Part shown: piece after piece, positions 41,045 to 44,318 of the stretch
Layout: the number at the start of each line of letters is the position of its first letter
How positions within the stretch are numbered: position 1 is the stretch's first letter
From: Haloflavibacter putidus
GTDB taxonomy: Bacteria > Bacteroidota > Bacteroidia > Flavobacteriales > Flavobacteriaceae
Direction of reading: 5' to 3'
Assembly: GCF_006546625.1 (NCBI RefSeq)
Contig: NZ_VIAR01000001.1
Span: 372,001 to 436,000 of the forward strand
Length of the DNA stretch: 64,000 nucleotides
The notes under the pieces: generated by a model
The model's database searches: none
What the model was told of the DNA's origin: nothing
Seen by the model: the letters and a program-made list of their open reading frames with translations, nothing else
Program-made: the position numbers and the translations under genes

Positions 41045-41639
41045 TATTGTAAAGCAAGATTATAACGTTAACGTTAAACAAAGGCGGGAGCAAAACAAGC
41101 ATAATTCCAAATTAATTTGGTTTACGGGTTTGTCCGGTTCCGGCAAATCTACTTTGGCAAATCAGGTAGAAGTTTATTTGCACAAGCAAGGCAAAAAAAC
41201 CTATGTTTTAGATGGCGATAACATTAGAGGTGGTCTAAACAAAGATTTAGATTTTACGCCAGAAGGCAGAGAAGAAAATTTAAGACGCATTGCAGAAACC
41301 GCAAAGTTGTTTATCGATGCCGGAGTTATTACCTTAGCAGCTTTTATAAGTCCGATGCAAAAAGACAGGGACAAAATTAGAGAAATAGTTGGCAAAGAGA
41401 ATTTTATAGAAGTGTTTGTAAACGCCAGTGTAGAAGCTTGCGAAAAGCGCGATGTAAAAGGTTTGTACAAAAAAGCCCGCGCCGGAAAAATACCAAATTT
41501 TACCGGTATTAGCGCGCCGTACGAAAAACCCGAAAACCCAACAATACAAATAAATTCGGATTTTGAAAGTATAGAAGATTCGATAAAAAGAATTATTAAA
41601 GTCATTAACCCGGAATTAGAATTACCCAATCATGAGTAA
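41034..41639 (+). CDS. cysC: Adenylylsulfate (APS) kinase
   Basis: 201 residues. Walker A GLSGSGKS is at 32-39; LDGDNIRGGLNKDLDF and FISPMQKDRDKIREIVG are the APS-binding elements. It phosphorylates APS to PAPS. Being a separate protein, it needs CysDN for APS. It overlaps DUF2061 by 11 bases and cysD by 8, indicating translational coupling. Confidence 0.95.
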   Translation: MSTNIVKQDYNVNVKQRREQNKHNSKLIWFTGLSGSGKSTLANQVEVYLHKQGKKTYVLDGDNIRGGLNKDLDFTPEGREENLRRIAETAKLFIDAGVITLAAFISPMQKDRDKIREIVGKENFIEVFVNASVEACEKRDVKGLYKKARAGKIPNFTGISAPYEKPENPTIQINSDFESIEDSIKRIIKVINPELELPNHE

Positions 41640-42537
41640 ATATTATTTAAATTATTTAGATGAATTAGAGTCGGAAGCTATATATATTCTTCGCGAAGTA
41701 TATGCGCAATTTCAAAATCCGGTAATACTTTTTTCCGGAGGAAAAGATTCTATTTTGGTAACCCATTTGGCCAAAAAAGCATTTTATCCCAGCAAAATAC
41801 CTTTTGCATTAATGCACGTAGATACCGGGCACAACTTTCCGGAAACCATTGCTTTTCGTGATAAATTGATAAAAGATTTAGATGCGCGTTTAATCGTAGG
41901 TTCGGTTCAAGAATCTATAGATAAAGGTCGCGTGGCCGAAGAAAAAGGAAAAAATGCTACGCGTAACAAATTACAAATCACAACGCTTTTAGATGCTATT
42001 GAAGACAACAAAGTAGACTGCGCTATTGGTGGCGGTCGGCGTGATGAAGAAAAAGCTCGGGCAAAAGAACGTTTCTTTTCGCACCGGGATGATTTTGGAC
42101 AATGGGACCCAAAAAATCAGCGACCGGAATTATGGAATATCCTTAACGGAAAATATTTTGAAGGCGAGCATTTTAGAGCTTTCCCAATAAGCAACTGGAC
42201 AGAAATGGACGTGTGGAATTACATTCAGCGCGAGAACATTCAAATTCCGTCGCTTTATTTCGCCCACGAGCGTGAAGTAGTAAAACGTCAAGGTTCTTGG
42301 ATACCAAATTCAGAATATTTAAAATTGGACGAAAATGAAGAAATCGTAACCAAAAAAATACGTTTTAGAACTTTGGGAGATATTACCATTACCGGCGGAA
42401 TAGAAAGCGAAGCAGACACGGTAGAAAAGATAGCAAAAGAGGTAGCCGCAATGCGCGAAACAGAACGCGGCAACCGCTCAGACGACAAACGCTCTGAAAC
42501 CGCTATGGAAGATAGAAAGAAAGAGGGGTATTTTTAG
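41632..42537 (+). CDS. cysD: Sulfate adenylyltransferase subunit 2
   Basis: 301 residues. FSGGKDSILVTHLA (34-47) is the ATP-pyrophosphatase loop, and GGGRRDEEKARAKER and WNYIQRENIQIPSLYF are family signatures. With CysN it makes APS from sulfate and ATP. The next gene should be cysN, but a 524-base stretch with a four-helix-bundle gene lies between them. Confidence 0.95.
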   Translation: MSKYYLNYLDELESEAIYILREVYAQFQNPVILFSGGKDSILVTHLAKKAFYPSKIPFALMHVDTGHNFPETIAFRDKLIKDLDARLIVGSVQESIDKGRVAEEKGKNATRNKLQITTLLDAIEDNKVDCAIGGGRRDEEKARAKERFFSHRDDFGQWDPKNQRPELWNILNGKYFEGEHFRAFPISNWTEMDVWNYIQRENIQIPSLYFAHEREVVKRQGSWIPNSEYLKLDENEEIVTKKIRFRTLGDITITGGIESEADTVEKIAKEVAAMRETERGNRSDDKRSETAMEDRKKEGYF

Positions 42538-42610
42538 GTAGCGTTTTGCGCTGCTTTAAGCCTTAAGCAGCAGGCTGTAAGCAAAGAACCTAATGCATAA
42601 TTAAAAAATA

Positions 42611-42624
42611 AAGCTTAAAGCCTA
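42611..42624 (+). repeat. Direct repeat, left copy (AAGCTTAAAGCCTA)
   Basis: Identical to 43017-43030. It lies 17 bases before the ATG of the four-helix-bundle gene. Confidence 0.8.
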
Positions 42625-42641
42625 GAGCTGGACTATAGAAA

Positions 42642-42995
42642 ATGAGAGATTTTAATAAGTATGAAGTTTGGAAATTGTCTCATCAACTAACAATAAAGAT
42701 ATATGAGTTAACGGCAAATTTTCCCGATAGCGAAAAATATCAAATGGTATCGCAAATGCGCAGAGCAGCATATTCTATTCCTGCTAATTTTTGTGAAGGT
42801 TGCGGAAGAAATTCCGATAAAGATTTTAATCGGTTTGTTCAAATAAGTTTAGGGTCTGCTCACGAATTAGAATATTTTATTCTTTTAAGTAGAGATTTAA
42901 AACTTTTTGATGATAAAATTTACAACTTGCTCACAGAAAAAGTGAACCATATAAAAGGAAAGTTATATAATTTGAGTAAAAAACTTATAGCATAA
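42642..42995 (+). CDS. Four-helix-bundle protein (S23/IVS-encoded type)
   Basis: 117 residues. The family pattern is clear: FNKYEVWKLSHQLTIKIYELT, then QMRRAAYSIPANFCEGCGR and an Asn/Asp-rich turn before FVQISLGSAHELEYFILLSRDL. Members are encoded in 23S rRNA intervening sequences in some bacteria and as free genes in Bacteroidota. The DGR accessory protein Avd has the same fold. The biochemical role is unknown, with nucleic-acid binding suspected. No reverse transcriptase or template repeat is present here. It is inserted between cysD and cysN. Confidence 0.9.
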   Translation: MRDFNKYEVWKLSHQLTIKIYELTANFPDSEKYQMVSQMRRAAYSIPANFCEGCGRNSDKDFNRFVQISLGSAHELEYFILLSRDLKLFDDKIYNLLTEKVNHIKGKLYNLSKKLIA

Positions 42996-43016
42996 CTAAA
43001 AATTCGAAAAAAAATT

Positions 43017-43030
43017 AAGCTTAAAGCCTA
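43017..43030 (+). repeat. Direct repeat, right copy (AAGCTTAAAGCCTA)
   Basis: Identical to 42611-42624; it is followed by CGGCATAAAGCTTATAGC, a variant of the same theme, and then by the cysN start 31 bases later. Confidence 0.8.
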
Positions 43031-43061
43031 CGGCATAAAGCTTATAGCTAAAAAAAATATC

Positions 43062-44318
43062 ATGCATATAGATAAAAATCAATTATTACGTTTTACCACG
43101 GCAGGAAGTGTAGATGATGGCAAAAGTACCTTGATTGGGCGTTTGCTTTTTGACTCGAAGTCTATTTTTGAAGACCAGATGAAAGCCGTAGAAAATTCTA
43201 GTAAGAAAAAAGGACACGAAGGTGTAGATCTGGCCATGTTTACAGATGGTTTACGCGATGAGCGTGAGCAAGGTATTACCATAGATGTTGCTTACCGTTA
43301 TTTTACCACGCCAAAACGTAAATTTATTATTGCAGATACACCGGGGCACATTCAATATACCAGAAATATGGTTACCGGCGCATCTACGGCAAATGCAGCC
43401 ATTATTTTGATAGATGCCCGCCACGGAGTTATCGAGCAAACCAAAAGACACGCTTTTATCGCTTCGTTATTGCAAATTCCGCATATAATTGTGTGTATCA
43501 ATAAAATGGATTTGGTAGAACATTCCGAAGAAACCTATAACAAAATTGTTAGTCAGTTTGAAGAGTTTTCTTCTAAGCTAATCATAAAAGACATTCGGTA
43601 TATACCTATTAGCGCTTTGTATGGTGACAATGTGGTAAACCGCTCACAAAATATGGACTGGTATCAGGGTTCGCCTTTATTGCACGAGTTAGAAACCATA
43701 CATATTGGTAGCGATATTAATAAAATAGACGCGCGTCTCTCCGTGCAAACAGTATTACGCCCACAGCGCGAAGGCTTTATAGATTACAGAGGTTATGCCG
43801 GTAGGGTTTCTAGCGGTATTTTTAGACCGGGAGATGCAATTACTGTTTTGCCATCTGGTTTTACTTCCAAAATAAAAAGTATTAACCTGTACGAAAAAGA
43901 GATAGAAGAAGCTTTTGCGCCAATGTCTGTAGCCGTATCCTTAGAAGACGATATAGATATTAGCCGGGGAGATATGATAGTTAAAACCAACAACCAACCG
44001 CAAACCTCGCAAGATATAGATGCTATGATTTGTTGGTTAAATACAGACGATGCCAAACCGAGAACAAAATATACAATTATGCATACGTCTAACGAGCAAA
44101 AAGCTTTAATAAAAGAGGTATTGTATAAAATAGACATTAATACCTACGATAGGATTACAGACGATAAAGATTTTAAAATGAATGATATTGGCCGGGTAAA
44201 AATAAGAACCACCCAGCCCTTGATGGCAGACGAATATAGAGACAATCGCGATACCGGAAGTTTTGTTTTAATAGATGACAATACCAACGAAACCGTTGCT
44301 GCGGGAATGATTATCTAA
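43062..44318 (+). CDS. cysN: Sulfate adenylyltransferase subunit 1 (GTPase)
   Basis: 418 residues, EF-Tu-like GTPase. GSVDDGKS (15-22) is the P-loop, ADTPGH the G3 and NKMD the G4 motif. Two beta-barrel domains follow. GTP hydrolysis drives APS formation by CysD. It is not fused to an APS kinase, in keeping with the separate cysC. Confidence 0.95.
   Translation: MHIDKNQLLRFTTAGSVDDGKSTLIGRLLFDSKSIFEDQMKAVENSSKKKGHEGVDLAMFTDGLRDEREQGITIDVAYRYFTTPKRKFIIADTPGHIQYTRNMVTGASTANAAIILIDARHGVIEQTKRHAFIASLLQIPHIIVCINKMDLVEHSEETYNKIVSQFEEFSSKLIIKDIRYIPISALYGDNVVNRSQNMDWYQGSPLLHELETIHIGSDINKIDARLSVQTVLRPQREGFIDYRGYAGRVSSGIFRPGDAITVLPSGFTSKIKSINLYEKEIEEAFAPMSVAVSLEDDIDISRGDMIVKTNNQPQTSQDIDAMICWLNTDDAKPRTKYTIMHTSNEQKALIKEVLYKIDINTYDRITDDKDFKMNDIGRVKIRTTQPLMADEYRDNRDTGSFVLIDDNTNETVAAGMII

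Follow-up and report, generated by a model that had tools for sequence, protein, structure and literature searches.

A putative mobile cassette with heptamer-repeat arms and an S23-type four-helix-bundle gene between cysD and cysN of Haloflavibacter putidus

The insert that separates cysD from cysN in Haloflavibacter putidus (positions 42538–43061 of the window, the 64,000-nucleotide stretch of DNA analyzed here) is probably, though far from certainly, one copy of a mobile cassette, a relative of the intervening sequences (IVSs) of 23S rRNA that lives in the mRNAs of operons. Such a cassette would consist of a heptamer array, a sense-oriented gene for an S23/IVP four-helix-bundle (4HB) protein, and an inverted second array, all placed between a stop codon and a start codon. 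With this strict architecture of inverted heptamer arms, sense orientation, and operon junctions, PF05635 genes become an element whose edges are defined and which can be tested, and it would link the PF05635 family to both the rRNA intervening sequences and the Avd fold of retroelements.

Layout of the insert and its protein

A preliminary description of this DNA had remarked on a gap of 524 nucleotides between cysD and cysN in a locus where most genes overlap. Both genes were named by NCBIfam at the positions listed in Table 1, which gives exactly that gap, and cysC and cysD indeed overlap (41632 versus 41639). The single S23-type 4HB ORF described for the insert was verified by PF05635 (121 bits, cut-off 33.8) and by TIGR02436. 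It is the sole ORF of at least 60 aa within the insert, where no transposase or recombinase was found. A search of Rfam over 41632–44318 gave zero matches up to E 1, so that neither an rRNA gene nor the core of a group I or group II intron was detected in the region. Promoters and terminators around the insert were not predicted above the level of shuffled sequence. The extent of the segment was defined by comparison with a related genome, G005 (G000 denotes the genome holding the window, and other G numbers denote the related genomes compared). The right end of the swapped segment lies a few bases 5' of the cysN start codon, where ATCATG is common to G000 and G005.

Table 1. Coordinates of the features in the cysD–cysN region of the window.
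Feature	Position	Strand	Basis or remark
cysD, upstream host gene	41632..42537	+	NCBIfam CysD; swapped segment bounded on the left by its stop codon (comparison with G005)
Left arm block 1, heptamers TTTAAGC CTTAAGC AGCAGGC TGTAAGC	42555..42582	+	[AG]GC register
Left arm block 2, heptamers ATAAAGC TTAAAGC CTAGAGC	42608..42628	+	[AG]GC register; includes left 14-mer
S23/IVP four-helix-bundle (4HB) gene, 117 aa	42642..42995	+	PF05635, TIGR02436; predicted fold
Right arm, heptamers ATTAAGC TTAAAGC CTACGGC ATAAAGC TTATAGC (35 nt)	43014..43048	+	[AG]GC register; includes right 14-mer
cysN, downstream host gene	43062..44318	+	NCBIfam CysN; comparison with G005

The 117-aa protein was predicted to form four helices with a mean pLDDT of 95.6. 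Its best solved match was 2gsc (TM 0.94), followed by 2rld, and Avd (4dwl) was matched with a TM of 0.79 at a Foldseek E of 0.06, together with retroelement complexes at TM 0.68–0.79 and weak E-values. In the literature, the protein of 2gsc has been described as a homopentamer (PMC4990558; reference title in PMC10053308), the homology between 4DWL and 2GSC has been noted (PMC10053308), and the function of PF05635 is stated as unknown (PMC4990558). The 4HB ORF is under purifying selection, as estimated from a dN/dS of 0.05–0.18 in 11 same-lineage pairs, in some of which synonymous change is near saturation; a twelfth pair was saturated.

Heptamer arrays at the insert and beside other 4HB genes

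On both sides of the ORF, [AG]GC recurs with a spacing of 7 nt, four and three times in the two blocks to the left of the gene and five times to its right, a feature absent from the preliminary description. The triplets start at 42559, 42566, 42573, and 42580 in the first left block (where an additional triplet starts at 42569), at 42612, 42619, and 42626 in the second left block, and at 43018, 43025, 43032, 43039, and 43046 in the right arm. The left flank exhibited a lag-7 score of 13, which was reached in none of 1000 shuffles, and the right flank a score of 10, which was equaled in 66 of 1000 shuffles and is hence only suggestive on its own. The direct repeat of 14 bases noticed previously, AAGCTTAAAGCCTA, is exact at 42611–42624 and 43017–43030 and occurred twice in 0 of 100 shuffles of the window; some exact 14-mer repeat was present in 10 of 500 shuffles of the insert. 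The repeat is itself array sequence lying in the 7-nt register and is hence unlikely to be an insertion footprint or a target-site duplication; the relatives compared include no closely related empty site. The complementary words at the insert ends were recovered, GCTTTAAGC on the left being the reverse complement of GCTTAAAGC on the right, and a repeat search also paired 42553–42565 with 42609–42621, both on the left side of the ORF.

It had further been suggested to look for the same flank word near other 4HB genes of this genome; the other copies in G000 use other words. The pattern AAGCTTAAAGC has 10 matches in G000 against 0 for its reversed form, and two of them belong to the window element. 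The coordinates of the remaining eight place none of them close to a PF05635 match, and they were not taken as sister elements; three of them read as unrelated coding or intergenic sequence, and five are on the minus strand. Of the 11 PF05635 matches in G000, two are the parts of a single split gene and another two contain an in-frame stop; the flanks of these genes hold degenerate arrays with differing words, which are often inverted between the two sides. Apparent arrays of the AGC-type word of the window element were also seen without a 4HB gene at the contig ends of C22 and C15 and at C11:30490–30535 of G000, and one of this group adjoins an apparent 5S rRNA gene at a contig end.

The association of arrays with 4HB genes was evaluated on 120 stretches, together 2.28 Mb, taken from 22 genomes that belong to the same order as the window; most of the stretches were centered on PF05635 matches, plus 17 G000 stretches placed irrespective of PF05635. 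A 4HB profile made from 23 sequences gave 116 4HB ORFs, including partial ones and halves. A lag-7 score of at least 9 was obtained for 56% of the 195 gaps beside 4HB ORFs versus 10% of the 1100 other gaps, a score of at least 12 for 36% versus 6%, and a score of at least 16 for 15% versus 3%; the remaining 44% of the 4HB-side gaps score below 9. No excess beside 4HB ORFs was detected in the same gaps at lags 3–6 and 9–13 at score 9, and lag 14 (40% versus 8%) and lag 8 (12% versus 4%) carry part of the lag-7 signal. The 17 G000 stretches, which have no 4HB ORF, gave only 4 of 187 gaps with a score of at least 11, with 0–4 at the control lags.

Such arrays were also observed in three broad sets, consisting of 29 loci found in 148 genomes drawn from the phylum, 66 loci of named Bacteroidota, and 13 loci from outside the phylum (including Geobacter, Anaerolineae, Omnitrophota, SAR324, Atribacterota, a Clostridia bin, Nomurabacteria, Nitrospirae, and a Methanophagales bin). 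A lag-7 score of 9 was reached by 47%, 53%, and 54% of the arms, respectively, and lags 4–6 and 9–13 by only 0–5%; on 29 viral contigs it was reached by 43% of the arms, with 36% at lag 14 and 0–3% at other lags, although many of the broad-set and viral records are metagenome bins whose taxon is perhaps misassigned. A PF05635 match was present in 116 of the 148 genomes drawn from Bacteroidota. The median gap in 100 intact elements is 51 nt on each side and the median insert 470 nt, and the number of units in 105 detectable arrays peaks between four and five. No conserved core was found inside the heptamers of the 67 arrays tested out of these 105, in which mismatches are even over the seven positions, an argument against a core that is conserved for recognition. 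At the locus of Geobacter sp. AOG1, there is a long GC-rich heptamer array resembling the published G. metallireducens elements. Arrays were matched at 18 places in that genome (at most two mismatches) versus 2 for the control, and nine of the 18 fall within the one element.

Exchange of cassettes at operon junctions

The CysD comparison covered 27 loci in 26 genomes. Empty sites, which the preliminary description had suggested looking for in relatives, do exist, as a 4HB gene is located at the cysD–cysN junction in only three of the 27 loci (G000, G005, and G008). Arrays with a score of at least 12 but no 4HB gene were detected at this junction in G003, G017, G018, and G028, and the remaining 20 loci have neither a 4HB gene nor arrays, the scores of G021 (11) and G026 (10) being matched by a control lag. 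In G018, the gap up to the CysN motif is 633 nt long, and the arrays are reiterated in units of approximately 90 nt. The 4HB genes of G000 and G008 are of the same type and that of G005 is of an unrelated type, with a CysD of G005 that is 99% identical to that of G000. The flanks of G000 and G005 are 97% (last 60 nt) and 95% (first 60 nt) identical up to the edge, indicating that the exchanged segment begins at the stop codon and ends a few bases 5' of the start codon. Related but distinct 4HB types (similarity 0.53) were found for the same two genomes at another locus, loc0, between flanks of 90% and 93% identity. At loc2, G010 and G011 carry unrelated types between flanks of 91% and 79% identity; the latter rises to 95% deeper in the downstream gene, so that a short stretch of this flank may have travelled along. 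Proteins of the same locus fall in separate groups of a 100-protein tree, and a single clade per locus was rejected by the AU test for loc0 (p = 0.0007), loc2 (1.2e-8), loc3 (5e-7), and loc11 (2.4e-4); the loc4 proteins are already one side of a tree branch. These comparisons of sequence show that close relatives have different cassettes at one and the same operon junction. The earlier suggestion of a mobile insert is strengthened by these differing types and by the rejection of one origin at four loci, and we infer that the cassette is mobile.

The 116 4HB ORFs of the order-level set were assigned to 49 loci. They are co-directional with both neighbors in 107 of 114 cases, as compared with 1113 of 1746 for other genes, and the same holds for 22 of 28, 61 of 62, and 10 of 12 loci of the broad sets for which both neighbors were found. 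Eight junctions could be named on both sides: CysD/CysN, 3-hydroxyacyl-CoA dehydrogenase/thiolase, thiolase/acyl-CoA dehydrogenase, 2-oxoacid dehydrogenase acyltransferase/E1, coproporphyrinogen oxidase/porphobilinogen synthase, 3-oxoacid CoA-transferase A/B, PaaA/PaaB, and HisH/HisA. They are no measure of a preference for subunit genes because they were picked by eye, and they illustrate that subunit-gene junctions (CysD/CysN, 3-oxoacid CoA-transferase A/B, 2-oxoacid dehydrogenase E2/E1, and PaaA/PaaB) can host exchangeable inserts. No rRNA was detected near the 4HB genes of 20 loci (13 of other phyla and 7 of the 29 viral ones), and one tRNA was found. In an Anaerolineae bin (L301), the 4HB gene is located upstream of a pheS-like ORF, behind a leader that appears T-box-like by eye and has no match in Rfam.

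The arms are inherited together with the protein. Between elements at different loci, more similar proteins tend to have more similar words (r = 0.147 for 4055 pairs of 92 elements), and 1000 permutations gave a mean of 0 with an sd of 0.014 and a maximum of 0.052. This cross-locus effect is genuine, if of modest size, and may stem from co-inheritance and not from recognition. For pairs at the same locus, the mean word similarity is −0.09 with dissimilar proteins (n = 18), 0.03 with intermediate proteins (n = 38), and 0.24 with like proteins (n = 75). The word thus goes with the protein and not with the locus, which indicates that the arms and the ORF behave as one cassette. The nearest relatives of the window element elsewhere are those of G003 and G008 at loc4, which likewise use an AGC word.

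Arm pairing, known systems, and alternative explanations

Pairing between the two arms of the same element was evaluated at a mean of −23.8 kcal/mol (90 of the 116 ORFs were usable), as compared with −11.7 kcal/mol for permuted partners, for which the best of 2000 permutations gave −13.5 kcal/mol. The left arm paired with the reverse complement of the right arm at a mean of −16.4 kcal/mol, which indicates that the heptamer words are partly self-complementary. The arms of the window element gave −30.1 kcal/mol, the fifth best value among 90 candidate right arms, and the whole insert gave an RNA fold z of −2.11; in its minimum-energy fold, the left arm folds on itself and the ends are joined by four pairs only. 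Among 74 same-locus pairs, own arms paired more strongly in 50 and less strongly in 23, with 1 tie, and this gain comes from pairs with different words. Within a lineage, swapped arms pair as well as own arms, so base-by-base compensation was not seen. The cysD–cysN cassette of G005 has a lag-7 score of 6 with no clear arrays, and its arm pairing (z = 0.2) is not above background. The left arms are G-rich (82:12) and the right arms C-rich (66:20), in which they differ from ordinary tandem gaps before a start codon (259:395). In the operon transcript, the arms could pair and loop the ORF out like the stems of a 23S rRNA IVS, and the looped insert might be tolerated or trimmed by a double-strand RNase (RNase III), leaving both cistrons usable. 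The 4HB protein, which has a pentameric solved relative and relatives by fold (Avd) in retroelement RNA complexes, would probably bind the arms or serve movement.

The kinship to 23S rRNA IVS proteins that had been pointed out previously is upheld by the membership in PF05635, the same S23p family, and, for the cassettes as a group, by their complementary ends. Unlike these IVSs, the cysD–cysN insert lies between protein-coding genes and not inside an rRNA gene, and its arms consist of heptamer arrays, with a word that varies from one element to the next. In PMC4990558, the rRNA element of Coxiella is described as having three tandem heptamers and a degenerate fourth one 5' of the S23 ORF, as being cut by RNase III in vitro, and as carrying an ORF that is not produced in vivo and is decaying. 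The heptamer arms may accordingly be common to the IVS and the cassette. Unlike the Coxiella ORF, the cassette ORFs are under purifying selection. The Avd of diversity-generating retroelements shares the four-helix-bundle fold only, with weak E-values, and G000 has no PF00078 reverse transcriptase; the insert also differs from insertion sequences and transposons in the lack of a transposase or recombinase. Heptamer arrays have been published for Beggiatoaceae (TAACTGA), Xanthomonas (GGGAATC), and Geobacter metallireducens (GGACCGG and MTYCTGA) (PMC4679880, PMC4692102, PMC2700814). They are similarly described as tandem 7-nt repeats between genes with lineage-specific words, and one Geobacter class has five tandem heptamers. 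The texts available for the three papers mention neither four helix nor S23 and tie no protein gene to the arrays, and an account of a heptamer-armed 4HB cassette was not found in the open-licence literature, judged by titles, abstract starts, and passages.

Four other explanations were considered. A host regulator, in which a pentameric 4HB ring binds approximately five mRNA heptamers, one per subunit, and sets downstream translation, seems rather unlikely. Such binding would be TRAP-like, and the purifying selection on the ORF, the arrays of mostly four to five units (exactly five in the right arm of the window), and the four of eight junctions, picked by eye, that separate subunits of one enzyme or complex would all suit such a regulator; however, 4HB types replace one another at one junction, most relatives lack the gene at cysD–cysN, and no position within the heptamers is conserved. 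We regard as distinctly unlikely a DNA-level transposable unit, whose arms would serve as ends with several binding sites for the 4HB protein and which would be moved by an enzyme of the host or by an unlinked one. Neither the near-uniform sense orientation nor the opposite G/C skew of the arms is expected of double-stranded ends, and the insert has no transposase, even though inverted ends, inheritance as a unit, and exchange at fixed sites are all consistent with such a unit.

In an RNA route, the RNA of the cassette would become linked to other transcripts, and a reverse transcriptase acting in trans would copy it back. Such a route would fit the sense orientation, the location within transcripts, and the Avd-like fold, but is considered very improbable. 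PF00078 has no match in G000 despite its 11 PF05635 matches, nor in G022 (16 PF05635 matches), G021 (11), G004 (9), G007 (8), or G010 (7), although more divergent reverse transcriptases could escape this profile. It is scarcely credible that chance or replication slippage creates heptamer arrays anywhere and that 4HB genes are bystanders. Heptameric repeats are reported to be over-represented in bacterial genomes (PMC4692102), and the even spread of mismatches would fit slippage; against it stand the concentration of arrays at 4HB genes (56% versus 10% of gaps), their near absence from the G000 stretches without a 4HB gene, and arms that are complementary and travel with the protein. Chance as a sole explanation is contradicted by this enrichment, by the arm pairing, and by the arms of the broad sets.

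The reading of the insert as a mobile relative of the 23S rRNA IVS is retained, for a cassette that encodes no known recombinase and no known reverse transcriptase. It may tentatively be extended to a new class of recombinase-less, heptamer-armed cassettes, which would settle and replace each other exactly between stop and start codons, in transcript sense, in many phyla and phages. The rRNA IVS would then be the best-known special case of this class, the bacterial excess of seven-base repeats, for which the cassette is a candidate cause, would be in large part the trace left by these cassettes, and the ring of S23 subunits would determine the 7-nt period.

The 4HB genes are themselves interrupted in places. 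Three different ones are split at one conserved codon, after the Asn of S-I/V-P-x-N, by a cassette of approximately 300 bp (L172 9617–10270 in G000:C7, L179 9699–10345 in G005:C1, and L363 in G001:C5), whose ends are inverted repeats, with one mismatch in G000. Its 87-aa ORF is presumably a GIY-YIG nuclease, and the arrangement suggests a homing nuclease that exploits 4HB genes. At L364 (G015:C52), the 87-aa ORF adjoins the start of a sugar-nucleotide epimerase-like gene instead.
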